Positions 11,005 through 29,652 of a DNA stretch of 61,567 nucleotides are shown here, piece after piece (the first letter of the stretch is position 1; every line of letters starts with the position of its first letter). Below the pieces are notes generated by a model. It made no database searches. It saw only the letters and a program-made list of their open reading frames with translations, and was not told the DNA's origin. The position numbers and the translations under genes were made by a program. Origin of the DNA: Aureimonas altamirensis (GTDB taxonomy: Bacteria; Pseudomonadota; Alphaproteobacteria; Rhizobiales; Rhizobiaceae); NCBI RefSeq assembly GCF_023702225.1, contig NZ_JAMQCO010000013.1:1-61567 (forward strand), given 5' to 3'.

Positions 11005-11739
11005 TCAGCCTGCCTTGTTTTCAGAGCTTATCAGCGTCTCGGTACTGAGGGCGAGCTGCCGTGCGTATGTCTTAGATGCATCCAGAACACTGGCCTGACT
11101 TACGCCGAAAATGAAGAACATGGCGTGGATGAGTGAGAAAATAGCCAGGAAGACGAGTTTTCCATCACTCAAGCTGGCAAACCCGGGCTCAAGCCAAACG
11201 ATGGCGGCAGCCAACGCGAACACAAGTATGTTAAGGAGTATACCAACGGGTTTTAGCCCGAGTAGATTGCGTCTAAACCCATAGCTGACGTTCTCGTGGA
11301 ACAGTAGCTTGAAACGCTCCGTATCGCGTGTGTTCTCCCGCAGCCAGAAGAAACACTCATCATAGAAATCGCGTGAAAGTTGTGGGTTCTGCCTTTCGTC
11401 GTCTTCCGATAGAGGCGTTTGATTTATTTTATTAGCGATGAAAGCGCGGTAGCGGTCGCGCATGCCTTTGACGAGCGTAGAATTGTCATGACAAAGCTCA
11501 GTGTTGTAGGGCTTTCCACCTGTCTCAGCGAAAAGCTGACGCTCTCGCCGTCTACCCATGCGGCGAGCTAGATCTGCCGCAGCAAAGAAAAGAACAGCGA
11601 TCCCGGCCGTAGAGACGATTTCGGAAAGGCCCGGGTCAGTCCAGTTCGTGGCGAGCAGCGCAAGAGCCACCGCCGGGGCGATCGTCAGGATCGCAGGGAA
11701 GAGACGGGCTCGAATCGAGTATGCGTCAAGGAATTCCAT
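11005..11739 (-). CDS. Four-TM membrane protein, putative effector
   Basis: 244 aa. Two N-terminal hydrophobic helices (about 12-32 and 39-58) and two C-terminal ones (about 162-184 and 193-214) flank a soluble middle of about 100 residues rich in charge and aromatics. This layout resembles 4TM/SLATT-like predicted membrane effectors that travel with nucleotide- or ubiquitin-type defence genes; family membership is not proven. The start overlaps the E2-E1-JAB gene by 14 bp, so it is third in the operon. The C-terminus is Lys-Ala-Gly. Confidence 0.8.
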   Translation of the reverse strand: MEFLDAYSIRARLFPAILTIAPAVALALLATNWTDPGLSEIVSTAGIAVLFFAAADLARRMGRRRERQLFAETGGKPYNTELCHDNSTLVKGMRDRYRAFIANKINQTPLSEDDERQNPQLSRDFYDECFFWLRENTRDTERFKLLFHENVSYGFRRNLLGLKPVGILLNILVFALAAAIVWLEPGFASLSDGKLVFLAIFSLIHAMFFIFGVSQASVLDASKTYARQLALSTETLISSENKAG

Positions 11740-14014
11740 TCGCTCCCTCTTCCGTTCCCATGATGCAATGGAAATCCGTTGGCGTGACGATCAGGAGGAT
11801 GGCGGGAGGAGCCCTTTCATCCGCTAACTGTCGCGCTGTGTCGCGATCAAGGTTTGAAGGTCCAACGTCCACGAGATGGCTGTGCCATGTGCCTATATCG
11901 AGCAGGCCGCCGCCACTGCGTTGGTGTCTGTCTCGAATGGCGGCTTGGGCCCCCTCGGTTCCCAGAACGAACTTCGTCGCGCTTCTCGTGCTGTCAGGGG
12001 GCGCGGGTAAGGTATCGACCACGGTGATCGTTCTCATGCGAGCACTGCAGCTCCCGATGAGAAAGCCGCCAGTCTCCACATCCGTGTAGGCCGCAGCTTC
12101 GGCTCGAATGCGGTCGATTACTTCAACCGTCACCCGAACTCTCCAGTCTGCCCCCGTGACCGGTATCTCAATCAAGGGTGGAACGGCCAATCGCCGCCAG
12201 GTGAGGTTTGACGTCGTGCGATCCCGAACGCAAATCGCGACGTGACCCCCACCCTCACGCTCTTCCCATCGATCTAGAATTTCCTCTGTCGCGATCGCTG
12301 TCATCGATGACAAACGAGCATCCGACATAGGCATCGTCAAAGATCCACAACCTTGACCAATCTGAACCTGCGCAAGGCCATGCTCTTCGTCGAACAGCAA
12401 AGCACTCTCATGAGGTGCTGCCGCTCCTGTAAGCACGGCCATCAGATCGACGAGGTTCGGGTTTCGCCCCTGCCCTTCGTAAAGGACGAAGCACCCCTCG
12501 CCACGTCCAAAAAGCGCGACTTCAGAAACTCGCGGGGGAAAGTGTTCGAGGGATGTAAGGCTGAGTGCTTCACGTACGAGAAGAGATGCGGTGGAATTGA
12601 TCACCGTCTCAGCATGACGGGGCGCAACTTCCTTCCAAATGCTGTCGTCCGCGAGACCGACAAGAATGTCGCCGCGATAGACTGAAGGCGACTGACCAAG
12701 GTTTCGAAGGTTCTCGGCTACCACGTCAGCCTTCGGCTGAGGGAGCGGTCCTGCAACGGGTCCATATCGAGCCATGTTGTGCGGTAGAAGGTTGCTCTTG
12801 TCGGTCACAGCCGAGACCGGAATTCCGGCTCTCGCAAGGTGCAGCGCAATCTTCGATCCCACACTGCCGCAACCGATCAAGGCGGTCGCAGCCCGCTCGG
12901 GCTCGTTGGCCACTTCTCTCAGAAGAGCGGGCGACGTCTTCTCCAAGCATCGTATCGGCGCTGAATGAAGGCCATCCTCGCCGTCGAACAAGGTCGAGCG
13001 CCCAACTGTGGGACGGACTTCGATGGCATACGGCAGAAGTTCGATGGGCGTCCGCCGATCCATCAAATCAAATGGCCGACGGGCGCAAAAGACGATGCCG
13101 ATTGGAATGGGATAGTCGCAGCTCTGGTCCGCCAACATTCGCTCGAGACCATCAACGAACGATCGAAACTGGCTTCGAAACCCCAATTGGTCGGCTCGAG
13201 CTGTCAAATCGGCGATGGAAGTGATTGTTTCCGGGAGGAACTCGGAAGCCACGAGGGGCTGACCATCAGGCTGTCGGCCGCTCCAGAAAATGCCGACAAC
13301 TGTTTTACCGTATGACCGTTCAGGAGAAGGCGACCACAACTGAACAGGTCGCTTCTTCGTCGCCGCAAAAAGCGCCGTCGGCTCATTCTCGACATCAAAA
13401 AAAACTTCCACGTCAGGGCCGAGAACGGCATCCTGCCGACCAAAGCGATAGAACCCAGTCTTCAAGGCGGTCCACCCGGCGTCCTTGCCAACACGTTGCC
13501 GGACATAATCCGTCTCCGCGATAAGGGCGCCGCTAGCCTGGTAGCGAATGGTGGGCTCCCACCCTTGAGCCTCATTCATCAACGTGCCTTCGGCGGCACG
13601 AGCGAGCCAAACGGCTAGCTGATCAAATAGATAGACGATCCCCAACTCGAGCATGCCGAACTGGTTGAAGTATTCTCCCGCAGCTCCGTCGACGAGACAG
13701 GGTGCAGGCTCATCGTCTGCAGATCCAGGATACAGGTGCGGAAGATTCCTAGGGAAGTCTCGCCGGAAGCGGAACGTCGGTTCTCGCCAAGGATAGGCGT
13801 TCGTCAGAACGACCCAGACCCGCTCGACTTTGAGCACCCCATTCGAACTGACGCCACGCGCCCGTTCGATAAGCGTCATCTCGACATCGACGTCGACGTA
13901 CAAACGTGCGCTCAGATCACCGATGTCTTCAATACCCGCAGCAAGACACTGAGGGTGACCGGTTACGACACGCTGGAAATGTTCAGCGTGCCGCTGCAGG
14001 TCCGCCGCAGACAT
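11726..14014 (-). CDS. Fused E2-E1(ThiF)-JAB protein
   Basis: 762 aa. Residues 1 to about 150 look like the bacterial E2-like domain that precedes ThiF domains, with 'PHLYPG' and candidate active Cys106 in PCLVDG. About 370-600 is a ThiF/E1 adenylation domain: nucleotide loop G381-C-G-S-V-G386, then D405, N410 and R416. About 625-755 is a JAB/JAMM metalloprotease with E647 (DVETGG), H711-S-H713, S720 and D723, the full zinc set. The family logic is adenylation of a C-terminal Gly, thioester transfer, conjugation, and removal by JAB. It starts 3 bp after the MBL stop and is the middle gene of three. No CD-NTase or free ubiquitin-like protein is nearby. Confidence 0.9.
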   Translation of the reverse strand: MSAADLQRHAEHFQRVVTGHPQCLAAGIEDIGDLSARLYVDVDVEMTLIERARGVSSNGVLKVERVWVVLTNAYPWREPTFRFRRDFPRNLPHLYPGSADDEPAPCLVDGAAGEYFNQFGMLELGIVYLFDQLAVWLARAAEGTLMNEAQGWEPTIRYQASGALIAETDYVRQRVGKDAGWTALKTGFYRFGRQDAVLGPDVEVFFDVENEPTALFAATKKRPVQLWSPSPERSYGKTVVGIFWSGRQPDGQPLVASEFLPETITSIADLTARADQLGFRSQFRSFVDGLERMLADQSCDYPIPIGIVFCARRPFDLMDRRTPIELLPYAIEVRPTVGRSTLFDGEDGLHSAPIRCLEKTSPALLREVANEPERAATALIGCGSVGSKIALHLARAGIPVSAVTDKSNLLPHNMARYGPVAGPLPQPKADVVAENLRNLGQSPSVYRGDILVGLADDSIWKEVAPRHAETVINSTASLLVREALSLTSLEHFPPRVSEVALFGRGEGCFVLYEGQGRNPNLVDLMAVLTGAAAPHESALLFDEEHGLAQVQIGQGCGSLTMPMSDARLSSMTAIATEEILDRWEEREGGGHVAICVRDRTTSNLTWRRLAVPPLIEIPVTGADWRVRVTVEVIDRIRAEAAAYTDVETGGFLIGSCSARMRTITVVDTLPAPPDSTRSATKFVLGTEGAQAAIRDRHQRSGGGLLDIGTWHSHLVDVGPSNLDRDTARQLADERAPPAILLIVTPTDFHCIMGTEEGANGIP

Positions 14015-14017
14015 TTC

Positions 14018-15193
14018 TCACCCATGTCCGCGTGCAGTCGTTGAAACCGCGCTAACCCCGGCCGCTGATGCGCCGATCGTGGCCGCGAGCTTCAAGGTGC
14101 GCTGCGTACCCCTGTGGCTAATCTTGAACTCCACAGGTCTGTCTTCCTTATCGCGCACCTCTTCCGTGCATAGAAAGCGATCCGTATCCTCGCCAACCAT
14201 GGAAAGGTATTCGCGTTTGGCCCGCTCATGCGGCGGGTTCGCATCGTCCTTTTTGATGGGTTTGCAACTCGCCACGATGACGGAGCCCTCTCGGCCCTGC
14301 CCAAGCGCGTCTCGAGCCTCCGGGCAAACCTTGACTGCCTCACCGAGCTGAGACCAGCGGTCGAAGCTCAACGTCCGCCATGAACAATGATGCGGCGTTT
14401 CCATGATGTCATACTGGAGCCAATCGGTCGTTCCATCTTCCGAATGGCGTTCCCAAAGTCGCTTCCAGATCGCAACGCCAGCATCGCCTCCGGATAGAAA
14501 GAGACACTTTCCTTTGTAGCCGTCGGCTGAGATCGAAAAGCGCGTGATGACGGAGGAGTTGTTCTTCTCGATCTCGTCGAGGAGGGGATCGTCCTCGTCC
14601 TCGAAAAAAATTGGGGCAAGGAGCCGTCCCTCTAGTTCACCCGACTGCACGCGGTTGACCTTCGTGATGAGCTCTTTGCATTCGATCAGGATATCGCCCA
14701 GATCGTCGGTTTTTCCGTCCTTATCTTTGCCGAGGATAAGGATGCGATCTCCATTCTCCGTCGCCAGTCCATCCTCGCGAAACCGTCGAACCCTCCGACG
14801 AGCCTCAGAAGCCCACGCCTTGGCTTCCTCGCAAAGCTGATGCTGCGTGCTGGCCCGACGAAACACGATCGGTGACGACCACATTTCACGGATCAGAATT
14901 AGGTTCTTGTTCCCAACGGGGAAATCGTCGGGAGAGCCGAGATGAAAATGCGTGCTCAAGCCGGTGACGTGGTCTGCATCAGGGTGGGAGACAAGAAACG
15001 CGTCGACATAGAGCCTGCCCTTCTCATCACGAGGTAGGCGGTCCTTCAGATCCTTCGCGACGTCGTACGTGCTATCGTCCGGGTTGTCGGCTGCCGCCCG
15101 AATGTTGATATCGATTAGGACATTCTGGCCGTTGTCGAGCTGAATCAACGCCATATCGCCGTTCCCGACGGGGAAGAAGGTGAGGTATGCCAT
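14018..15193 (-). CDS. ComEC-type metallo-beta-lactamase-fold protein
   Basis: 391 aa from ATG 15193, chosen for a GGAGG 8 bp upstream; the frame stays open to 15247. The metal motif SHPDADH (H70, D72, D74, H75) is the HxDxDH form seen in ComEC/Rec2-type MBL domains. No ComEC membrane domain is present. It ends in a Gly/Ala/Ser-rich tail terminating Arg-Gly-His-Gly. It is the first gene of the operon with the E2-E1-JAB and 4TM genes. Its role could be a nuclease or hydrolase, or the substrate of conjugation. Confidence 0.87.
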   Translation of the reverse strand: MAYLTFFPVGNGDMALIQLDNGQNVLIDINIRAAADNPDDSTYDVAKDLKDRLPRDEKGRLYVDAFLVSHPDADHVTGLSTHFHLGSPDDFPVGNKNLILIREMWSSPIVFRRASTQHQLCEEAKAWASEARRRVRRFREDGLATENGDRILILGKDKDGKTDDLGDILIECKELITKVNRVQSGELEGRLLAPIFFEDEDDPLLDEIEKNNSSVITRFSISADGYKGKCLFLSGGDAGVAIWKRLWERHSEDGTTDWLQYDIMETPHHCSWRTLSFDRWSQLGEAVKVCPEARDALGQGREGSVIVASCKPIKKDDANPPHERAKREYLSMVGEDTDRFLCTEEVRDKEDRPVEFKISHRGTQRTLKLAATIGASAAGVSAVSTTARGHG

Positions 15194-15385
15194 TTCATGC
15201 CTCCAGCTTTTAGAGGCACATATATGGTGATTTGGTCGCCAAGACACAAGATGTGGTGTGTAGATGGGTAAGATTTTCGATATCTGGGTCAGTTCTGTCC
15301 AACGTCCCGGGCCTGCGGGGTACGCTCTAAGCTGCGTCAGTCCAAATCGTTCTCAGATAGCACCTCTCGCGCACGAACTAGGCTC

Positions 15386-16359: not shown

Positions 16360-16670
16360 GGGCGCGACATTTGAACGGTCGACGAGCTGACCGCTCGTCG
16401 GCTTCTTGCCGGTCCGTAGATCGCCCAAGCGCCCGCGCCCGGAACGGTCAAGGGGCAAGCGCGCGTCCCGCGCGTCGGATCGGCCTTCGGCCTCGCCGGA
16501 GAAAATCGGCTTTCACGGCCGAGGCCGCGAACCTTCCGATTTTCGCCGTCGCCGACCCCGTGACAGTCCCGGACCCGGCACTCGGGGGTCTTCACCCCCC
16601 TCCCTTCGCTCCGGTGAATGACAGGAGGTCATTCACCGGCACGAACGCCGGGGCCTCGCCCACAGGCGAT
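16360..16670 (+). promoter_or_regulatory. Structured leader, copy 1
   Basis: First of three 311-313 bp leaders. Ordered hairpins: 16380-16400 (CGACGAGC stem); 16501-16544 (GAAAATCGG/CCGATTTTC); 16584-16599 (GGGGGT-CTTC-ACCCCC); 16611-16639 (12-bp CCGGTGAATGAC stem, loop AGGAG). It ends 'ggcgat' just before the SD AAGGAG of the 16687 gene, with 47 bp between the last long hairpin and the ATG. 'Ggacttatccagtcc' upstream (about 16231) is shared with copy 2 only. Confidence 0.75.
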
Positions 16671-16686
16671 GAAGGAGTCCCCGCCG

Positions 16687-16959
16687 ATGACCGAAGCCCT
16701 TAGCCTTTCCCTCGACGTTGGAACCATCATGACCGCCAAGCGCAGCCCGAACGACACCCGCGAGGACTTCTTCCAGATCACCCGCATCGTCAGCCGCGCC
16801 ACCGTGGAACTGCGTCAGATCGTGGTGGACCAAAACGGCAACCCCGTCGCCAGCGCCTTCGTCGCCCCGCCCTTCACAACACCCGTTGCGGTCGAGATCC
16901 AACCCGACCGTCAGGGCGTCGTGTGGGGCAACCCGTCCGACTGGAGCGCGGCCCTTTGA
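16687..16959 (+). CDS. Small hypothetical protein behind leader copy 1
   Basis: 90 aa from the ATG at 16687, with SD AAGGAG nine bases upstream. Contains 'VGTIMTAKRSPNDTREDFFQITRIVS' and looks like a compact beta-rich protein. Not recognised. It shares its leader with the ArdC relic and DUF736, which suggests expression under the same conditions. Confidence 0.65.
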   Translation: MTEALSLSLDVGTIMTAKRSPNDTREDFFQITRIVSRATVELRQIVVDQNGNPVASAFVAPPFTTPVAVEIQPDRQGVVWGNPSDWSAAL

Positions 16960-17041
16960 CAGGCGGTCGCGCCTTGCGCGCAACGCCGCCGCCTTCACGC
17001 GACGGCGTTGCCGTCGTGTCGCCTATAGGCTACACTATGCC

Positions 17042-17344
17042 ATGAAGCTCGTTTTGCATCCAGTATTCGAGAAATGGCTGTCGGACCTTCGGGACCGGCA
17101 GTCCCGCAGCCGCATCCTGACGCGCCTTTCGCATGTCCAGGAAGGAAACTTTGGGGATCACAAGAGTGTCGGAGACGGCGTGTCGGAACTGCGCTTCGCC
17201 TTCGGCCCCGGCTACCGGGTCTACTACACCCGGCGCGGAAACGTCGTCGTCATCATGCTTTGCGGCGGCGACAAGGGCAGCCAGCAGAGCGACATTCGCA
17301 AGGCCAAGGCATTGGCCGCAGAGTTGGAGGACGGAACATGGTGA
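17042..17344 (+). CDS. RelE/ParE-type toxin (HigB-like)
   Basis: 100 aa from ATG 17042; the longer upstream frame is not plausible. 'FEKWLSDLRDRQSRSRILTRLSHVQEGNFGDHKSVGDGVSELRFAFGPGYRVYY' is the addiction-module killer protein signature. This family usually cleaves ribosome-bound mRNA or targets gyrase. The toxin precedes its antitoxin, with a 7-bp overlap, the HigBA order. Confidence 0.88.
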   Translation: MKLVLHPVFEKWLSDLRDRQSRSRILTRLSHVQEGNFGDHKSVGDGVSELRFAFGPGYRVYYTRRGNVVVIMLCGGDKGSQQSDIRKAKALAAELEDGTW

Positions 17345-17652
17345 AGGTCAGCGACCTCAAAGAATACGACCCCGCCGACTTCCTCGAAACGGCCGAGGAT
17401 CGCGCGAGCTTCATCACGGCCGCATTCGAGGATGGCGACCCCGTTATCATCCGCAAGGCGCTCGGAGCCGTCGCGCGATCCATAGGAATGAAGGACATCG
17501 CGGAAGCCGCGAACCTGAACCGGGAAAGCCTCTATCGCTCGCTTGGCGAGAACGGCAATCCGGAACTGGCGACTATCCTCAAACTCATGAAGGCGATGGG
17601 CCTGACGCTTGCCGCCAACCCGACCGACCAGACCCTTGCGAAGGCGGGATGA
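17338..17652 (+). CDS. Antitoxin of the addiction module (HigA-like)
   Basis: 104 aa. The N-terminal part 'EYDPADFLETAEDRASFITAAFEDGD' probably contacts the toxin. The C-terminal HTH 'MKDIAEAANLNRESLYRSLGENGNPELATILKLMKAMG' is the usual addiction-module antidote form. The ATG at 17338 overlaps the toxin end. Likely to stabilise the plasmid. Confidence 0.88.
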   Translation: MVKVSDLKEYDPADFLETAEDRASFITAAFEDGDPVIIRKALGAVARSIGMKDIAEAANLNRESLYRSLGENGNPELATILKLMKAMGLTLAANPTDQTLAKAG

Positions 17653-17689
17653 CCGGATCGAGCCGCAACCGGCCAAGGAGACAGACCCC

Positions 17690-17992
17690 ATGACACCGCA
17701 AGAGCGCGCCGCCGTGGAACGGCTGATCGAACTGGCGAAGAGCGACACCGGACAGGCCCGACGCGCGGCCGACTTCCTGCTCGCATGGTGGAACGCCACT
17801 GACCTTGGCGGCTTCAACCCGATCGACGCGGGCAACGTCGACGAGGCGATTGCCGAGGACATGATGACGGTCTTCGCCTTCGTCGCTCGCGCCCCGAGCC
17901 CGGTCTATCCCGACGAGTACGAGCGCGACATCAGGACCCTGATTCAGCGATGGCGACCGGACGTATGGGCGCGCTCGCAGGAGACCGCCTGA
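17690..17992 (+). CDS. DUF7673-like protein
   Basis: 100 aa. 'LIELAKSDTGQARRAADFLLAWWNATDLGGF' is a motif I associate with the DUF7673 family common on alphaproteobacterial plasmids. Cytoplasmic. Function unknown. A strong terminator follows. Confidence 0.7.
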   Translation: MTPQERAAVERLIELAKSDTGQARRAADFLLAWWNATDLGGFNPIDAGNVDEAIAEDMMTVFAFVARAPSPVYPDEYERDIRTLIQRWRPDVWARSQETA

Positions 17993-18010
17993 ACACGACG
18001 ACAGCAGGAA

Positions 18011-18030
18011 GGGGCCGCAAGGCCCCTTTT
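18011..18030 (+). terminator. Rho-independent terminator
   Basis: GGGGCC-GCAA-GGCCCC followed by TTTT, 18 bases after the DUF7673 stop. Confidence 0.75.
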
Positions 18031-18148
18031 CCGCGTCTGCCGGATCGCGGCCGAGGGGTCCAGTCACCGCGCTTCGAGCGCGCCGCCTGGACCATGAGGG
18101 GCGCCCCGCGCCCCGCCCCTCACATTCCCCGCCCACCCGTCGCCTCGA

Positions 18149-18787
18149 TCACGCATCGACCGGAGAACGCTTCTGCCAGTCAAGCGGTACGAGGATCCGC
18201 GTATGGGCGTCACCGTTCCATTGGGGTCGCAGCCCGTTCCGCTCGACGGTCGCGACCGTCTCGCGCGCAACCGTCAGAGGCACGCCCGCCTCCTCCGTGA
18301 AACTGCCGAATGCAAGGTAGATGCCCTCGCCCTCAACAGCCTTGTCCACGTCCTGCGCGTGATAAAACACAAAGCCGCGCGATGGCTCGCCGGCGTCCTG
18401 TCGCTGCCGGTGGAGTTCGTAAGCTTCGGTCACGCCCTCTGACCGGGTGTTGCCGGGACAGTGCAGGGCGAGAATGCCGGACGCTTCCAGCTCGTCGAAG
18501 GCGCGCGACAACCGGTCGAAATCCGTTGCGGGAGGCCATGCGGCCTCCTCCTCGCGCTTGTCAGCGAAGACGCGCGAAACCTCCGCGCCGATCCAGCGCG
18601 CATCGTCGGGGCTGATCGTGTCGGGCTCTAGATACTCCTCGCGCAGCGCCTCGAAGGCCGCATCTTCGGTGTGGAATCCACCCTTCGCCCAAAGCGCGAT
18701 GCGCCTGGTCGCGTCGGATCGGTCCACCGGCTTATAGCCGCCGGCGGACGTGTCCTGGCCGAAAAGCCTGCGCAGGAAATCGAGCAT
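18149..18787 (-). CDS. DUF6891-like protein
   Basis: 212 aa. Centre 'DFDRLSRAFDELEASGILALHCPGNTRSEG' and 'GFVFYHAQDVDKAVEGEGIYLAFGSF' match my memory of DUF6891 proteins, with a single Cys where others have several. It is the only minus-strand gene between 16 and 21 kb. Its C-terminal coding end contains REP-like element 3. Confidence 0.65.
   Translation of the reverse strand: MLDFLRRLFGQDTSAGGYKPVDRSDATRRIALWAKGGFHTEDAAFEALREEYLEPDTISPDDARWIGAEVSRVFADKREEEAAWPPATDFDRLSRAFDELEASGILALHCPGNTRSEGVTEAYELHRQRQDAGEPSRGFVFYHAQDVDKAVEGEGIYLAFGSFTEEAGVPLTVARETVATVERNGLRPQWNGDAHTRILVPLDWQKRSPVDA
18226..18258. repeat. GGTCGC...GCGACC palindromic element 3
   Basis: GGTCGC and GCGACC arms, lying inside the 3' coding end of the minus-strand gene. 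The centre reads 'cccgttccgc', the inverse complement of the 'gcggaacggg' form. Confidence 0.4.
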
Positions 18788-18917
18788 TCACAAAGCCTCC
18801 TCGCCGTTGTCGAGGGGAGAGCTTGGACCGAACCCGCTGGAAGGACCACCCGCGCCGGTTCGTCAGCAGGAGAAAGGTTAAGGCCCTCTTAACCATGCTG
18901 TGTAACCCTGTCGGGAC

Positions 18918-18952
18918 GGTCGCTCGCCTGTTCCATGGAACGGGACGCGACC
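18918..18952. repeat. GGTCGC...GCGACC palindromic element 4
   Basis: GGTCGC/GCGACC arms around the perfect 12-bp palindrome GTTCCATGGAAC (18930-18941). It is nested in a larger dyad, 'tgtaaccctg' (about 18901) with 'caggggttaca' (about 18965). It sits directly before the 18980 gene and may be its operator. Confidence 0.55.
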
Positions 18953-18979
18953 CCCAACGAACCGCAGGGGTTACAGGCC

Positions 18980-19459
18980 ATGACGACACTTTCCCTTGGA
19001 CAGGCAGCCAAGCTCGCCGGTGTCGGCAAGACGACCATTTCGCGCGCGATCACAGCAGGGCGCTTGAGTGCCATGCGCAAGGACGATGGCGGTTATGCCA
19101 TCGACCCCGCCGAGCTTGGCCGCGTTTACGAGCTGGATGCGGCGAGACTCGAGCGGACCCCCGAGCCGGACAATGACGACGGTCACGACGACGGTCACGC
19201 GGAACGAGGCGAGACCCTTGCGGAACGCATCGAACGCGAGAGCGAGATCCGCATCCTCACCGCGCAGATCGAGGCGCTGCGTGAACTGATCGCCGGCGAG
19301 AAGGCGCGCCGCGAGGCGGCCGAGGCCGATCGCGACCGCTGGGCGCAACAGGCCGAACGGGTCGCGGGCCTCCTGCCGCCACCGTCGCCGGTGACGCCTT
19401 CGGCACCGCCCGTTCGGCAAGGCTTCTTGGCCTCGCTGTTCTCGCGCCGCGCTGCGTAG
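18980..19459 (+). CDS. HTH protein with C-terminal coiled coil
   Basis: 159 aa from ATG 18980; upstream codons to 18935 run through the palindrome and are rejected. Residues about 5-50 form an excisionase/MerR-like HTH (LGQAAKLAGVGKTTISRAITAGRLSAMRKDDGGYAI). Then an acidic His/Asp linker, a long charged coiled coil (ERIERESEIRILTAQIEALREL...) and a Pro-rich tail. Looks like a plasmid-encoded DNA-binding protein. The target is unknown, but the dyad before it suggests autoregulation. Confidence 0.72.
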   Translation: MTTLSLGQAAKLAGVGKTTISRAITAGRLSAMRKDDGGYAIDPAELGRVYELDAARLERTPEPDNDDGHDDGHAERGETLAERIERESEIRILTAQIEALRELIAGEKARREAAEADRDRWAQQAERVAGLLPPPSPVTPSAPPVRQGFLASLFSRRAA

Positions 19460-19655
19460 GCGACGGGTTCACATTTCGAGCGGCGCCGAGACCCCGGCGC
19501 CGACCTTGGACTTATCCAGTCCGAAGGACCGCCCCGCGCCCTCGCGGGAGCGCAGGCGAGACCGAACGCGCTTCCCATAGCGCCGTAGAGAGGTCGAGCC
19601 TGTGGGTAAGTCCGACACCGCTGCCGGCATCCGTCCAGATCGCACCGGGCGCGAC

Positions 19656-19690
19656 GGTCGCGCTCCTGTTGCGTGGAACGACACGCGACC
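19656..19690. repeat. GGTCGC...GCGACC palindromic element 5
   Basis: Almost identical to element 2, with the flank 'ccctgaaaccc'. Lies about 55 bp before leader copy 2 begins. Confidence 0.5.
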
Positions 19691-19743
19691 CCTGAAACCC
19701 TGCGCGGAACGCTCCGTCGCGGGAAGAGGGCAGGGCACGCCTT

Positions 19744-20056
19744 GGGCGCGACATCTGACCGGTCGACGAGCGGTCCGCTCGTCGCCTTACCCCTGTCTGT
19801 TGATCGCCCAAGCGCCCGCGCCCGTGCCTGTCTAGGGGCAAGCGCGCGTCCCGCGCGTCGGATCGGCTCACGCCTCATCGAACAAAATCGGCTTTCACGG
19901 CCAGGGCCGCGAACCTTCCGATTTTACCCGCTGCCGACCCCATAGACAGCCCCGAACCCGGCCACTCGGGGGTCTTCGCCCCCCTCCCTTCGCTCCGGTG
20001 AATGTCAGGGCAGACATTCACCGGCACGAACGCCGGGGGCCTCGCCCACTGGCGAT
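19744..20056 (+). promoter_or_regulatory. Structured leader, copy 2
   Basis: Hairpins in the same order as copy 1: 19764-19784 (9-bp CGACGAGCG stem); 19884-19925 (AAAATCGG/CCGATTTT); 19968-19983 (GGGGGT/GCCCCC, one T-G pair); 19995-20024 (12-bp CCGGTGAATGTC stem, loop AGGGCA). The last hairpin ends 46 bp before the ATG of the ArdC relic. Relative to copy 1, the eleventh stem pair is T-A rather than A-T. Confidence 0.75.
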
Positions 20057-20070
20057 AGGAGGCAACAGCC

Positions 20071-20294
20071 ATGGCTCGCAAACCCGCGCGTCGTCCCGCA
20101 TCGGACACCCCCCGCATCGACGTCTATCAGCGCGTCACCGACAAGATCGTGGCCCAGGTCGAGGCGGGCGCGCGCCCGCCGCATCGATGGCCGAGAAGGC
20201 GGCGACGTTCCTTCACAGCTTGCAGCCCGGATATGTCGCACCCGGCGAGGCCGAGGGGGAAGGGGAGGGGGAGCCGCAGAAGCTTGCGGCCTGA
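20071..20294 (+). pseudogene. Truncated ArdC-like antirestriction gene
   Basis: Start at ATG 20071 with SD GGAGG. The first ~38 codons (IDVYQRVTDKIVAQVEAGARP) match the N-terminal ssDNA-binding domain of ArdC-type antirestriction proteins, which normally run about 300 aa. After 'GARPP' the frame becomes Arg-rich and meaningless. Another frame (from about 20187) gives 'KAATFLHSLQPGYVAPGE...PQKLAA' and stops at 20294, likely the remains of the 3' end. The metalloprotease part is gone. The intact leader and SD suggest a fairly recent internal deletion. Confidence 0.6.
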
Positions 20295-20300
20295 ACCATG

Positions 20301-20380
20301 GGTGGCGCTCGCAAATCGTGAGCGCCACCAGCCCCCACCGGAGGCGTTCAGCCGCCATGCCGGCATCGAGCCGGCATGGC
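20301..20380. other. Two long perfect hairpins
   Basis: 20301-20329: arms GGTGGCGCTC and GAGCGCCACC. 20354-20380: arms GCCATGCCGGC and GCCGGCATGGC with a 5-base loop. No T-tract follows, so simple termination is unlikely. They begin a 570-bp hairpin-dense non-coding stretch. Confidence 0.55.
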
Positions 20381-20470
20381 GACGCTCCATGTGGAGCCTT
20401 CCGGCCCCGTGGGGGCCTCGCGCGCTGCGCTTGCAGATGAGGACGTGCGCCAGGCGCACGGCGTTTGATC

Positions 20471-20493
20471 GCCCCGCGTCAGCGGGGCTTTTT
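20471..20493 (+). terminator. Rho-independent terminator
   Basis: GCCCCGC-GTCA-GCGGGGC followed by TTTTT. It would end transcripts coming through the ArdC relic. Confidence 0.75.
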
Positions 20494-20638
20494 GCTGCTC
20501 CATGTCATCCCCCTTGTCCGGAGGCCCAAGGGTCAGCTTGACCGCGAAGCGGCCTCATCGGTGCGACCCTGCCAGCGAGCGAATGCGGCGGCCAGTGCGG
20601 GCGAGACCGGCGGCTCTCACCGCCCCTTTGAGGCGTCA

Positions 20639-20846
20639 GCGTCGTTCATTCACAGGTCAGAATGCCCCTCGGCCGCGTCGCTGCAACGTTTGGCAGGGAG
20701 AATTTTCCCCGCCCGCAAGCGGGCTCCTCGCGGCCGCGGCTGCGCCGCTCCAAAATTCCCCCTGCCAAACGTCCTCCGCTGCGCTCCGGCCCTGCGGGTG
20801 CAACGCCGCTCAACGCCGAGGGGCACCTTTGACCTGCGAACGACGC
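20639..20846. repeat. 208-bp imperfect palindrome
   Basis: Outer arms 'gcgtcgttc...caggtca' (20639-20659) and 'gacctgcgaacgacgc' (20831-20846). Middle arms GCCCCTCGGC (20664-20673) and GCCGAGGGGC (20815-20824). Inner arms CGTTTGGCAGGG (20687-20698) and CCCTGCCAAACG (20760-20771), each inner and middle pair perfect. A small hairpin GCCCGCAAGCGGGC sits near the centre. No gene inside. It lies immediately before the 58-aa ORF. Confidence 0.7.
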
Positions 20847-20868
20847 AGACACCTCAAAGGAGCTACCG

Positions 20869-21045
20869 ATGAAAACCACCTTCAAGTTTCTCGCCCGCAC
20901 TGGCCGCCGCATCCGCTCTTACGTTGGCAAGCTCATCAAGCCCCTCGCTAAGAACGGCCGCTTCACGGTCAAGCTGACCCTCTCCGTCCCGCTCTTCGCC
21001 AAGGTCGAGATCGGCGCGGAATGGAGCAGCAAGAAGCCCCGCTGA
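20869..21045 (+). CDS. Small basic protein, 58 aa
   Basis: ATG at 20869 with SD AAAGGAG seven bases upstream. Begins MKTTFKFLARTGRRIRSYVG and is very basic, with an amphipathic C-terminal half (TVKLTLSVPLFAKVEIGAEW). It follows the 208-bp palindrome and ends inside a hairpin, giving it clear gene-like boundaries. Not recognised. DNA or membrane association is conceivable from the charge. Confidence 0.6.
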   Translation: MKTTFKFLARTGRRIRSYVGKLIKPLAKNGRFTVKLTLSVPLFAKVEIGAEWSSKKPR

Positions 21046-21075
21046 CGCGGGGCGCCGGGGCCTAACGGCCCCGGC
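21036..21075. terminator. Tandem GC hairpins at the end of the 58-aa gene
   Basis: GCCCCGC-TGAC-GCGGGGC (21036-21053) has the stop codon in its loop and the same stem as the terminator at 20471. It is followed at once by GCCGGGGCC-TAAC-GGCCCCGGC (21054-21075). No T-run follows, but they lie between convergent genes. Confidence 0.5.
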
Positions 21076-21088
21076 TTCGGCCGCGACA

Positions 21089-21583
21089 TCAGGCCGTCGC
21101 GCTCGAAGTCGCAAGTCGCGCCGCCACGTTGTCCGGTGTCGGCTGCGGCTTCGATGGTATCCGAACGATCCGATAGTGCCCTTTCGAAAGGAGCCGGTCT
21201 CGATCGGCGTCCTTGCGGACGTCGTGGGACGCATCGTCGAACTCGATAATCGTCTCGACACAGCCTGTCTCCGGATCGATCACGACGAAATCGACGACCT
21301 TCTGACTGATCCTGTTCTGAACCGCATGCAAGGCTTTCCGGTCCAGTCCGCGCGTTGGCTTCAGGAGAGCGCCCATCGCAATCTGACAGTTCACATGATG
21401 GCGCGGGAAATGGTTTCGCAGGATCGTCAACAGGTTGAGTTCAGCCAGCGTAAGAAATACTCGCCGTTCCAATGAGGCGTGAGTCTTGCGTTGCCGTCCG
21501 AACAGCTCGACAGCCGCCACGAGAACGAACGCGACGAAAGCAACGATCAGGAGTGTGTTGTTCATATCGAGGGTGTCGAACAT
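21089..21583 (-). CDS. DUF2726 protein, nuclease-like
   Basis: 164 aa. One N-terminal membrane helix (about residues 10-27) is followed by a DUF2726 domain with 'KVVDFVVIDPETGCVETIIEFDDASHD' and 'DRDRLLSKGHYRIVRI', resembling a PD-(D/E)xK endonuclease core. Membrane anchoring with the domain in the cytoplasm is likely. M7 is an alternative start. Substrate unknown. Confidence 0.78.
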   Translation of the reverse strand: MFDTLDMNNTLLIVAFVAFVLVAAVELFGRQRKTHASLERRVFLTLAELNLLTILRNHFPRHHVNCQIAMGALLKPTRGLDRKALHAVQNRISQKVVDFVVIDPETGCVETIIEFDDASHDVRKDADRDRLLSKGHYRIVRIPSKPQPTPDNVAARLATSSATA

Positions 21584-21792
21584 GAAATCCCGTTCCGATT
21601 GTTACGTGGTTCTATCAATAGCCTCATGGGTGAATGAGCATCTGTCTTATGGCGGGGAACGTCGGGCGGCCCCTTCGGGCCGGGCTCTACTCGCTGCGCT
21701 CCCCGAGCCCTGCGGGTCTCGGCCCTTCGGGTAACGATCCCTGCCGCCTCCAGGCCGCTCACGCGACCTTGCGCGCTCCGCTTGCCGGATCC
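21584..21792. other. Intergenic, no gene seen
   Basis: Contains short GC-rich inverted segments such as 'cccttcgggccggg'. Nothing protein-like on either strand. Confidence 0.4.
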
Positions 21793-22404
21793 TCACCGGG
21801 CGTAATGACCGCCCGAGTAGCGGGGCCAATCGACGGCATGGCCGCCGCGAACCAGTTCGGTGGCAACGTCCTGCCCGTTTACAAAACACGTCGCCACGAC
21901 TCGGTTGTAGCTCGTCGGGTCGGATCGACCATCACAGACCGAACCACTCCCGACGCCACGGCAAGAAACCGACCGACCGTCGATCAATCGGCCGAGATAG
22001 GCGCCGGCTTCCCTATAGCCGAGCTCGCATTGTTCGGGCGCGTTCACGCCGCAGATGCGAACCGCGCGATCGCCTATGCGAAACGTGTCGCCGTCGGTGA
22101 TCTGCGTCACGACGCCGGCGAACGTCCCGTCGCCTGTCGATGTCGGCGTGCGGGGTGTGGAGACGCCGGCGCTGCCCTCGATGCCGTTCCAAACCCGGGC
22201 CGCCATGTCGGGACCGCCGACCACCAGAGCCAGCAGCACGACCGCGCCGATGCCAAGCCATTGCGTGCGCGAGCGCGAGCGCCAGGACGGCCGCCGCGAT
22301 CGGCGCCGTCGCCGTCGAAAGAGATCCCGCGCATCTAATCGCATTCGTTCTGTTGCACTTGGTGCTTCGCTTCCATGCTCGAGCCAATAGGTCAGACGCG
22401 CCAC
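21793..22404 (-). CDS. Membrane-anchored thermonuclease (SNase-like)
   Basis: 203 aa. A basic Arg-rich N-terminus, one membrane helix (about residues 50-66), a linker, then a staphylococcal-nuclease-like domain: 'VTQITDGDTFRIGDRAVRICGVNAPE', 'YNRVVATCFVNGQDVATELVRGG', ending 'YARYSGGHY'-like residues. The catalytic Asp of DGDT and the Arg/Glu of ICGVNAPE are present. The domain would lie in the periplasm. SNase-like proteins are common near conjugation genes. Confidence 0.85.
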   Translation of the reverse strand: MARLTYWLEHGSEAPSATERMRLDARDLFRRRRRRSRRPSWRSRSRTQWLGIGAVVLLALVVGGPDMAARVWNGIEGSAGVSTPRTPTSTGDGTFAGVVTQITDGDTFRIGDRAVRICGVNAPEQCELGYREAGAYLGRLIDGRSVSCRGVGSGSVCDGRSDPTSYNRVVATCFVNGQDVATELVRGGHAVDWPRYSGGHYAR

Positions 22405-22715
22405 GGGCGCGACATCTGAATGGTCGACGAGCTGGCCGCTTGTCGTCTTCTTGCCTGTTCGAGGACGCCCACGCGCCCCCGTCCGGGTCGGTCAATGGGC
22501 AAGCGCGCGTCCCGCGCGTCGGATCGGCCTTCGGCCTCGCCGGAGAAAATCGGCTTTCAGCCCTGCGCGCCGAACCTTCCGATTTTCACCGTCGCCGACC
22601 CCTGACAGTCCCGGCCGCGGTCACTCGGGGGTCTTCGCCCCCCTCCCTTCGCTCCGGTGAATGTCAGGGCAGACATTCACCGGCACGAACGCCGGGGGCC
22701 TCGCCCACTGGCGAT
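22405..22715 (+). promoter_or_regulatory. Structured leader, copy 3
   Basis: Hairpins: 22425-22445 (CGACGAGC with GCTTGTCG, one G-T wobble); 22545-22587 (GAAAATCGG/CCGATTTTC); 22627-22642 (GGGGGT/GCCCCC); 22654-22683 (12-bp CCGGTGAATGTC stem). The last hairpin ends 51 bp before the DUF736 start. Confidence 0.75.
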
Positions 22716-22734: not shown

Positions 22735-23094
22735 ATGTCCAACACCACCAACACCGCGCCCGTCACCAACGCCATTCGCATCGACGGCAAGAGCCTGTCC
22801 GGCAACGTCGCAACGCTCGCCTTCGACATCGACGTGACCGGCGCTCCGGTCCAGTCCACCAACGAGAAGGCCCCCAAGTTCCGCCTCTACGCGCAGAGCC
22901 CGCGCGGCCGTCGCATCGAGATCGGCGGCCTGTGGGAGAACGAGAACGTCGAGGGCAAGCCGTATTACTCGCTGACCCTCTCCACCGGACACGGGCGGTT
23001 CTACGCGAACCTTGGCCGTTATCCCGGTCAGGACGACGACGACCTCTATGCGGTGATCCCCAACGAATACCTCAACGGCGAGCGCCGCCGCTGA
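22735..23094 (+). CDS. DUF736 family protein
   Basis: 119 aa from ATG 22735 behind SD GAGG. 'PKFRLYAQSPRGRRIEIGGLWENENVEGKPYYSLTLSTGHGRFYANLGRYPGQDDDDLYAVIPNEY' is a clear DUF736 domain, a small beta-rich plasmid-associated protein. Function unknown. Preceded by leader copy 3 and followed after 53 bp by the large ParB-like gene. Confidence 0.88.
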   Translation: MSNTTNTAPVTNAIRIDGKSLSGNVATLAFDIDVTGAPVQSTNEKAPKFRLYAQSPRGRRIEIGGLWENENVEGKPYYSLTLSTGHGRFYANLGRYPGQDDDDLYAVIPNEYLNGERRR

Positions 23095-27899: not shown

Positions 27900-27975
27900 A
27901 TAATTTTACGTGCTATGCATTTCTAGTGCAGGATAGCCGTAGCGACGGAGTTTTGCCAAACTGGTGATGATGGGA
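27900..27975 (-). other. Candidate oriT with IncP-like nic core
   Basis: The minus strand reads CTATCCTG^CAC (nick between 27929 and 27928), matching the IncP/RP4 nic core CTATCCTG^C. Immediately 5' is CCGT-CGCT-ACGG (27937-27948 region), a small hairpin, then an AGTTT/AAACT dyad. It lies about 50 bp before mobC, the usual place for a MOBP oriT. Confidence 0.6.
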
Positions 27976-27980
27976 TCGCG

Positions 27981-28520
27981 GTGAAACACGTCAGCACGCA
28001 CATCGATGACGCCCTCGCAGACCGCTTCGCGGCCTTGGCGAAGGCGCATGGCGGCAAGTCCGCCCTACTTCGTCATCTGGTGACGATGGCCGTAGACGGC
28101 CCGTCGAGTGCGCCCACCCCGACGCTTCCCGCCGCCGAAGGCGCGGTCAGCCACCTGTCGGTGCGGCTTTCCCAAAGCGAGGTCGAAGCGGTCCGAAAGG
28201 CTGCGGTGGCGCGCGGCATGAAGCCCGCGCAGTGGCTCCGATCCGTGGTCCGGGTCCGTCTCGGGGGCGGGACGCAATACAGTGCCGAGGAGCTTCACCA
28301 GCTCCGGGCGCTGACCGTTCAGGTTCGCAAGGTCGGCGTGAACCTCAACCAGATTGCGCGTTCGGTGAACGAGGCTCGGCTAGAGCGATCCTCTTTCACC
28401 GTGGACGCGAAGGCTCTTGAGAAGGCGCGGGCCGAGGTCGAGCGCGCCATCGGCGTCCTTCATACGATGGCGCAGGGCAACGTTCGTTCGTGGGAAGGGG
28501 ATAGCGACGATGGCGAATGA
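27981..28520 (+). CDS. mobC: MobC-like relaxosome accessory protein
   Basis: 179 aa, GTG start. N-terminal ribbon-helix-helix-like segment ('HIDDALADRFAALAKAHGGKSALLRHLV'). Second half 'LSVRLSQSEVEAVRKAAVARGMKPAQWLRSVVRVRL...VGVNLNQIARSVNE' is the MobC signature. It probably binds oriT just upstream and loads the relaxase. Overlaps the relaxase gene by 11 bp. Confidence 0.85.
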   Translation: MKHVSTHIDDALADRFAALAKAHGGKSALLRHLVTMAVDGPSSAPTPTLPAAEGAVSHLSVRLSQSEVEAVRKAAVARGMKPAQWLRSVVRVRLGGGTQYSAEELHQLRALTVQVRKVGVNLNQIARSVNEARLERSSFTVDAKALEKARAEVERAIGVLHTMAQGNVRSWEGDSDDGE

Positions 28521-29652
28521 TGCGAAGGTCCGCGCGCTCTACGAAGACTTCTATCGGGGCTTCGGCGTCTCGGCCGCCTGGACGCCGCCAGCGAAAATGC
28601 GTCTCTACCGAGACCAGTTTCCCGCTGTCATGCAGCAGATGCGGCAGTCCAAGGCCGCGACGGCGAAGCTCGCTCGCATCGTGTCTAAGACGCCGGAGGT
28701 GATGGTGAAGGTGTCCGGCCGGACCTACGGGAGCGACCATCTTGGCGAGCATATGAACTATATCACCCGCAACGGGAAGGTCGCGGCCGAGACCGAATAC
28801 GGGATGATGAAGGGGAAGGAGGCCGTGCGCGACCTCCACGCGGACTGGACCGACGACGAGAAGATCTACGGCAACCAGCGCAACGTGCGACAGGCGCCGC
28901 TTTCGGTGAATATGGTCCTGTCCATGCCTCCGGGTTCGGATCGTGAGCGGTTCAGGAACGCCGTCCGCGATTTCGTAGACCGGGAAATTCGCCCTCGCTC
29001 GGAAGCCATGGTCGCCTTCCATGACGACACGAAGCATCCGCACGCGCACGTCACCGTGCGCGGCCGACAGCACAACGGACGGGCCTTCAACCCCGGCAAG
29101 CCGGTCCTTGAACGCTACCGCGAGCAATTCGCATCCGCGTTGCGCGAACGCGGAATCGAGGCCGAGGCGACGCCGCGCTTCGCGCGCGGACGAACGACCA
29201 AGGCCGAACGGCAGTCCATGCGCCACATGCGAGCGCGCGGTGTCACTCCACGCAACACCGAAAACGCCTTGCGGGAAGCGCTGGGGGAGGCCCAAAAGGA
29301 GCGAGCAGGCCGACAGAAAGGGAATGCATCACAAAACCAGCAGCCGCGCCCATGGAAGCAAGCGGTGGTAGACCGACAGGCTGGTGTTCAAGCGGTCTAT
29401 CAGATGGCCGCTCGTGAGCTCACTCGGAGTCCAAGTCGAGCCGAACAAGGTCTGGCCGTCGCGACTGCCGTATATGCACAAAAGCTCGAGCGTCCCGAAC
29501 TGCGGCACGACATCATGAAGAACACGATCCACCGACGGCTGGATGAGCGCGAGGCGGCGCAACGAAACCTAAATTTGAGGCCGGAACAGGATCGGAGTGT
29601 GCCACAACGGGACAGTGAGCGGACGGGGGACCGAAAACGCGAGCGGCCCTGA
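28510..29652 (+). CDS. MOBP-type relaxase (VirD2-like)
   Basis: 380 aa from ATG 28510. Contains a VirD2/TraI-like region with 'HLGEHMNYITRNGKV', 'NMVLSMPPGSDRERF' and the metal-binding His cluster 'HDDTKHPHAHVTVRG' (motif III). The nucleophilic Tyr is probably among the Tyr residues near 'YITRNG'. The C-terminal half is basic and lacks a helicase. It nicks oriT and pilots the strand. The stop codon lies inside the arm of the shared terminator. Confidence 0.87.
   Translation: MANDAKVRALYEDFYRGFGVSAAWTPPAKMRLYRDQFPAVMQQMRQSKAATAKLARIVSKTPEVMVKVSGRTYGSDHLGEHMNYITRNGKVAAETEYGMMKGKEAVRDLHADWTDDEKIYGNQRNVRQAPLSVNMVLSMPPGSDRERFRNAVRDFVDREIRPRSEAMVAFHDDTKHPHAHVTVRGRQHNGRAFNPGKPVLERYREQFASALRERGIEAEATPRFARGRTTKAERQSMRHMRARGVTPRNTENALREALGEAQKERAGRQKGNASQNQQPRPWKQAVVDRQAGVQAVYQMAARELTRSPSRAEQGLAVATAVYAQKLERPELRHDIMKNTIHRRLDEREAAQRNLNLRPEQDRSVPQRDSERTGDRKRERP

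Follow-up and report, generated by a model that had tools for sequence, protein, structure and literature searches.

Multi-hairpin elements in front of plasmid genes of Aureimonas altamirensis and other Rhizobiales: a candidate single-stranded DNA promoter on the transferred strand

Contig NZ_JAMQCO010000013.1 of the Aureimonas altamirensis assembly GCF_023702225.1 (61,567 nucleotides (nt), analysed at full length and called the window below) contains three copies of a multi-hairpin element of about 311 bp, each in front of a different start codon. Which molecule folds here, the messenger RNA or one of the DNA strands, and what does the fold serve? The preliminary description of this DNA assumed a plus-sense RNA leader because of two wobble pairs seen in the three copies. 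Homologues of the element point the opposite way: the molecule whose fold is conserved is probably the complementary (minus) strand, in the form of single-stranded DNA (ssDNA). A predicted nic site leads us to read this strand as the one transferred to the recipient (T-strand), and we favour, with some reserve, the interpretation that the element is an ssDNA promoter, similar in function to Frpo of the F plasmid, of a family that we did not find described. The three copies are:

16360..16670, minus strand (the strand predicted to fold): element copy 1; P1 arms 16447-16457 and 16554-16566, P3 16502-16543, P4 16584-16599, P5 16611-16639
19744..20056, minus strand (the strand predicted to fold): element copy 2; P1 arms 19830-19840 and 19936-19949, P3 19884-19925, P4 19968-19983, P5 19995-20024
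22405..22715, minus strand (the strand predicted to fold): element copy 3; P1 arms 22491-22501 and 22597-22608, P3 22546-22586, P4 22627-22642, P5 22654-22683

All three copies have the same order of parts: an outer hairpin (P0), a core of about 216 nt, in which P1 encloses P2 and P3 and is followed by P4 and P5, and then the start codon. P1 is a long-range helix (a GTCAAGGGG-type arm with CCCC..GAC), P3 has the form AAAATCGG-CTTTCA..GAACCTT-CCGATTTT. A 331-base query from copy 3 found copies 1 and 2, with 89% and 84% identity, respectively, and no further copy in the 4.33-Mb genome, where the only other hits were two short palindromic matches within copies 2 and 3. The copies and their ordered hairpins were thus located as first described. 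So was their fixed place before different genes: 47, 46 and 51 nt separate P5 from the ATG codons at 16687, 20071 and 22735. The compensatory A-T to T-A exchange reported for this last stem is present at 16611-16639, 19995-20024 and 22654-22683, and the statement that no named element is known agrees with Rfam 15, no family of which reached its gathering score in the whole window (copy 1, searched at E up to 10, gave four weak matches far under the cut-offs). When the window copies were folded as DNA and compared with dinucleotide shuffles, the plus strands were 3.2-5.3 and the minus strands 5.0-6.4 standard deviations (SD) below the shuffles. A 48-nt GC-rich repeat (GACGGTCGC..CGCGACCCC type) occurs near the elements at four places (16139, 16262, 18907 and 19645), and a block CTTGGACTTATCCAGTCCG near copies 1 and 2.

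Relatives of the element are found mainly on plasmids of Rhizobiales. Blastn searches of 72,556 plasmid records with copies 1 and 3 matched 22 and 31 records, respectively, mostly of Agrobacterium, Shinella, Sinorhizobium and Rhizobium. An iterated profile search of 49 stretches (1.23 Mb including the window; L015 and L048 are apparently one record fetched twice) yielded 72 matches, 64 of them distinct, with up to six per plasmid. The core alignment omitted three matches that end early; the remaining 69 gave 61 distinct cores, which were reduced to 24 representatives with every pair less than 90% identical.

With the covariance model R1, matches at E<=1e-3 were obtained in 27 of 247 genomes of the same family (own genome and several weak matches included). 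At E<=1e-6 the draw from the order gave 2 of 297 (own genome and one of the same family) and the draw from the class 2 of 385 (own genome and one other); these three figures are lower bounds, with 6-10 candidates scored per genome. Among the nearest relatives 3 of 21 matched, including the own genome and one weak match. The exact P3-core pattern was present in 67 stretches of a species-genome collection, 46 of them Rhizobiales by title (these titles include former Ochrobactrum species now named Brucella). Seven of the 67 were judged by taxon and context to be chance matches (L099, L104, L113, L138, L142, L145 and L156), and six of these served as controls. Outside Rhizobiales the pattern occurred in Leisingera, Sulfitobacter, Litoreibacter, Paracoccus, Cypionkella, Sphingopyxis, Sphingobium and a few more. 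The core hairpin P3 therefore recurs in other alphaproteobacterial orders; on reading these copies, mostly P3 is kept and the whole core is not.

Covariation supports the structure on either strand. In the T-strand alignment of the 24 homologues 37 of 70 pairs changed on both sides (covariation score 0.303), in the plus alignment 30 of 66 (0.226), and none of 500 shuffles reached the covariation of either strand. Sliding the partners by 1-3 columns lowered the share of paired cells from 86.0% to 41-51% (T-strand) and from 82.5% to 40-53% (plus), a comparison in which the unslid version is favoured by having both structures derived from the same alignments. The strong covariation of the plus alignment is also what a cis-regulatory RNA leader would show, in which plus-sense hairpins control translation or termination. 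The location before start codons fits such a leader as well, as do a chance-level terminator-like match at 22425-22445 and the two wobbles named in the preliminary description. Both are real: G-T occurs in the 22425-22445 hairpin, and T-A alternates with T-G in P4 (16584-16599, 19968-19983 and 22627-22642). The window copies thus favour the mRNA-sense strand in P4 and the outer hairpin; elsewhere fold and wobbles do not favour it. In 59 distinct P3 hairpins 53 cells were A-C on the plus strand, corresponding to G-T on the T-strand, against 12 that were G-T on the plus strand (712 were Watson-Crick and 46 other). C-G alternates with T-G on the T-strand, for example in columns 113-232 (13 and 11 sequences).

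Folding energies indicated the same strand. With DNA parameters the minus strand was the more stable one in 24 of 24 representatives, the mean difference being -9.2 kcal/mol as compared with -3.4 in shuffles, and 23 of the 24 exceeded their own shuffle mean. RNA parameters gave the same direction (-18.7 versus -9.8; 24/24 and 23/24). The standardised difference (z) was -2.50 (SD 1.34) in the representatives and -0.12 (SD 1.21) in 160 random windows (Mann-Whitney p 2e-10, indicative only, as homologues are not independent). Further copies, picked by eye and freed of near-duplicates, behaved similarly: mean z was -3.57 in 17 copies from Rhizobiales (one of which, L132, is apparently the contig of representative L064), -1.21 in 11 divergent copies (L102, L124 and L126 among them are Rhizobiales) and 0.04 in the six chance matches. 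Raw energy favoured the T-strand in 17/17, 11/11 and 3/6 of these, respectively; z was slightly positive in L157 of the 17 and L114 of the 11. The core carries the bias; the adjoining 110 nt on its upstream side, which include the outer hairpin, have z 0.09, no bias beyond composition, which is a point in favour of the RNA leader.

As controls we used Frpo1 and Frpo2 of F, located independently of the published coordinates as two stretches, 89% identical to each other, that precede ygeA/ygeB and ssb. They lean in the same direction (Frpo1 -2.4, Frpo2 -1.4). Structured RNAs of the own genome (five cobalamin riboswitches and RNase P) had z between -0.8 and 0.8 as DNA, with no T-strand-like bias, and between -1.5 and 0.9 as RNA. 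The energy test is informative solely in comparison with the random windows and Frpo.

A third strand-specific feature is found in the loops. Extraordinary stability is described for DNA hairpins in which a GNA or GNNA loop caps two or more G-C pairs (PMC4686876, PMC6479982). Of the 95 C-closed triloops in the 24 representatives, 48 were GNA on the T-strand and none on the other strand, where the background of C-closed triloops had 253 and 275 GNA of 3110. Tetraloops showed the same tendency (10 on the T-strand versus 2 on the other, of 55). In the 61 distinct cores GNA made up 138 C-closed triloops on the T-strand versus 6 on the other, of 279. A count made without the closing-pair rule gave 61 versus 4 of 152. 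The further copies gave 39 versus 3 of 72 (Rhizobiales) and 15 versus 2 of 28 (divergent). Homologous positions recur in all these GNA counts, which are therefore not independent. The loop of P4 has a variable middle base (TGC, TTC and TAC on the plus strand) between a T and a C that are mostly constant. The T-strand of the elements thus resembles mini-hairpins such as d(GCGAAGC) in meeting the loop rule on a G-C stem; those were isolated or engineered, whereas here they are conserved parts of a plasmid element (PMC4686876, PMC6479982).

Taken with the P3 wobbles (53:12) and the minus strand favoured in 24/24 representatives, the GNA loops on the minus strand make the plus-sense RNA fold of the preliminary description probably wrong. 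The elements share with the structured RNA leaders in Rfam 15 the ordered, covarying hairpins before start codons, and differ from them by lacking a family match and by a strand bias on the non-RNA strand; we consider an RNA leader unlikely. If the minus strand encoded a structured antisense RNA that acts on the neighbouring gene, this would agree with the RNA parameters, which also favour that strand in 24/24. GNA loops whose middle base is free are, on the other hand, a DNA signature, and no promoter-like site was found on either strand around copies 1 and 3, leaving this the least probable of the explanations considered. Hardly better placed are double-stranded inverted repeats, either as binding sites for proteins or as recombination repeats that gene conversion has spread. 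On the Shinella plasmid L007 (15954-25712) three copies score equally in the profile and a fourth nearly so, which suggests gene conversion between copies and fits such repeats. They predict no strand asymmetry, however, and copies elsewhere in the genome were not found.

The identity of the folding strand was approached through oriT. Three features of the window are relevant:

27928..27936, minus strand: predicted nic; the minus strand reads CTATCCTG/C, and the T-strand would leave leftwards
27981..28520, plus strand: MobC-type relaxosome protein (PF05713 above cut-off)
28495..29652, plus strand: relaxase with MobA/VirD2-like nuclease domain (PF03432 above cut-off; NF041450 (MobP1) 97.3 bits, under the cut-off of 200)

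The nick consensus of MOBP plasmids is (C/T)ATCCTG(C/T), and the relaxase remains on the 5' cleaved end (PMC3772185). Upstream of mobC this consensus occurs once in the window, on the minus strand. The minus strand is therefore read as the T-strand, leaving leftwards, an assignment based on motif and convention; this would place the elements in the leading region and make the T-strand the template of their genes. In 13 of 13 MOBP plasmids tested (L010, L012 and L080 were left out of the nic tests) the motif was on the template strand of the element and absent from the other strand, a pattern that 10.75% of random 760-nt windows also show. In two plasmids with Ti-type TraA (MOBQ) a motif that we take to be the Q-type nic had the same orientation. 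L083 had no relaxase in a further 21 kb.

The genes behind the elements of the window are:

16687..16959, plus strand: gene behind copy 1; 90 aa, without Pfam or NCBIfam match
20071..20541, plus strand: reading frame behind copy 2; start ArdC-like by eye, without family match, read as a remnant
22735..23094, plus strand: DUF736 gene behind copy 3 (PF05284, 40.5 bits, cut-off 22.1)

The DUF736 assignment of the preliminary description was confirmed by this match. Its ArdC relic is borne out by eye at the start of the frame and has no Pfam or NCBIfam match to support it. Out of 50 copies in annotated stretches (the window copies, whose gene starts are our own reading, included), 43 end 23-73 nt 5' of a coding sequence (CDS) on the same strand. 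The other seven comprise three inside ParB-type CDSs annotated to start upstream, one at a record end, two with no annotated CDS nearby, and one truncated copy followed by an insertion sequence (IS) gene. In the three ParB-type CDSs (at L007 29237, L015 27494 and L078 20169) the element lies inside the annotated gene, and the true start is probably downstream of the annotated one. Annotated genes behind the elements of relatives include DUF932, DUF736, large ParB-like proteins and a methyltransferase. Pfam searches identified SSB (three tested, one under the cut-off) and DUF736 (three tested) behind divergent copies, and ArdC (ArdcN) and DUF932 (one tested each) behind nearer copies. The elements thus precede gene families of leading regions: SSB, ArdcN, DUF932 and DUF736 by Pfam, ParB-like by annotation.

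In the F plasmid Frpo1 precedes ygeA/ygeB and Frpo2 precedes ssb, yfjA, yfjB, psiA and psiB; deletion of Frpo1 or Frpo2 abolishes early expression in recipients, and reconstituted -35/-10 boxes have been described (PMC9849209). In the F annotation Frpo1 is followed by a DUF932 gene, and Frpo2 by ssb, a large ParB-like gene and psiB. An earlier reference on Frpo ssDNA promoters is reportedly Masai and Arai 1997. Like Frpo1 and Frpo2, the elements described here are placed in the leading region, the T-strand being the template; their long multi-stem fold is more stable on the T-strand, they occur in more than one copy, and the genes behind them include members of the DUF932, ssb and large ParB-like families. 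Unlike Frpo, they have the P3 core and GNA loops, up to six copies per plasmid and alphaproteobacterial hosts. Since strand, place, orientation and gene families are the same, an ssDNA promoter is the best explanation.

Several results weigh against a promoter on the T-strand. There is no sequence homology to Frpo (profile versus 18.5 kb of F including Frpo1 and Frpo2, best E 0.52). Pairs of sigma-70-like boxes, scanned with E. coli- and rhizobial-type consensus, were at chance (mean best 6.79 of 12 versus 6.78 in shuffles, and 7.29 versus 7.25), and a promoter scan around copies 1 and 3 gave no sigma-70-like site on either strand. Single copies are weak, as in window copy 1 and L083, whose bias is no greater than that of their shuffles. 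When folds were made without G-T pairs the A-C:G-T ratios were just 34:22, 41:21, 48:45 and 15:13, so most of the wobble bias comes from helix extensions. Finally, the RNA controls showed no preference for their own sense strand, and the energy test alone would therefore have missed an RNA leader. Short blocks common to F and P1 by eye, e.g. CAAGGGGCA, were not used as evidence.

The same T-strand structure, the lack of recognisable promoter boxes and the several copies per plasmid would also suit single-strand initiation (ssi) sites, at which a primase or primosome starts the complementary strand and the proximity of genes is secondary. Such sites are formed by hairpins on the transferred single strand, to which an initiating enzyme is recruited. 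They are named for ColIb-P9 and other plasmids (PMC11541004). Our elements share with them the hairpins on the transferred strand and are set apart, by description and not by sequence, in standing nearly always directly before gene starts. Priming requires neither that 43 of 50 copies lie 23-73 nt before a same-strand CDS nor that different copies serve different genes. We regard priming alone as rather improbable, while it is the main rival of the ssDNA promoter. In a title Frpo is reportedly called promoter and primer source, so both roles may hold.

If the elements are ssDNA promoters, the plasmid would enter the recipient as a single minus strand, from nic at 27928 leftwards. Each element would fold on this strand, with P1 enclosing P2 and P3 and with P4 and P5 following; GNA loops would cap several of the hairpins. 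The local duplex could let RNA polymerase bind and start on the incoming strand; transcription would then run in the direction of oriT and reach the gene within a few dozen nt. Leading-region proteins (in relatives ArdC, DUF736, DUF932, ParB-like and SSB) would thereby be made ahead of the second strand, and once the DNA is double-stranded the fold would be lost and expression would drop. A tentative extension, which we hold with much less conviction, is a class of ssDNA regulatory elements, distributed across several alphaproteobacterial orders, in which no sigma-70 promoter is imitated: the nearly invariant P3 core, with its conserved asymmetric internal loop, might be read on the T-strand by another factor (an alternative sigma, a primase or a plasmid protein) and stabilised by the GNA mini-hairpins, serving leading-region genes in Rhizobiales, Rhodobacterales and Sphingomonadales.

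Promoters of this kind decide which plasmid genes act ahead of the defences of the host. In one survey the queries used on leading regions were five known Frpo/ssi sequences plus candidates from four islands, for which sigma-70 consensus boxes were also used (PMC11541004); another used BLAST with 18 Frpo sequences (PMC12826799). Relying on known sequences, such surveys would miss unrelated families. The main text of PMC11541004 does not mention Alphaproteobacteria or Agrobacterium, that of PMC12826799 neither 'rhizobi' nor Agrobacterium, and no description of such a family was found in the open-licence PubMed Central literature, supplements aside. A covarying family in Rhizobiaceae and beyond would be a second lineage, and strand-specific structure combined with GNA loops a way to find more. 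DUF736, DUF932 and the large ParB-like proteins would become candidates for a role in early establishment or in counter-defence. As no boxes are recognisable, a testable question arises: how does transcription start on incoming single strands outside enterobacteria?

Two neighbouring features of the window are worth recording. Between copies 2 and 3 (20470-21054) five nested inverted repeats form a near-perfect fold-back of about 585 nt around a 58-aa open reading frame (20869-21046). It matches one of the 72,556 plasmid records. Folded as DNA it has -246.5 kcal/mol on the T-strand and -223.3 on the plus strand; for a relative in A. larrymoorei (L006, about 11084-11688, 81% identical) the values are -225.3 and -188.4 kcal/mol. 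Between the two, 14 of 176 long-range pairs changed on both sides with pairing kept, and on the T-strand 13 changes were from Watson-Crick to G-T and two to A-C. The fold-back is possibly a second, much larger T-strand-specific element. At 11005-15247 minus-strand genes encode three proteins: one of 762 aa that matches PADLOC E1-E2 and JAB models, one of 409 aa with weak matches to defence models of the metallo-beta-lactamase type, and one of 244 aa without match; by these matches the group looks like a ubiquitin-like defence cluster.

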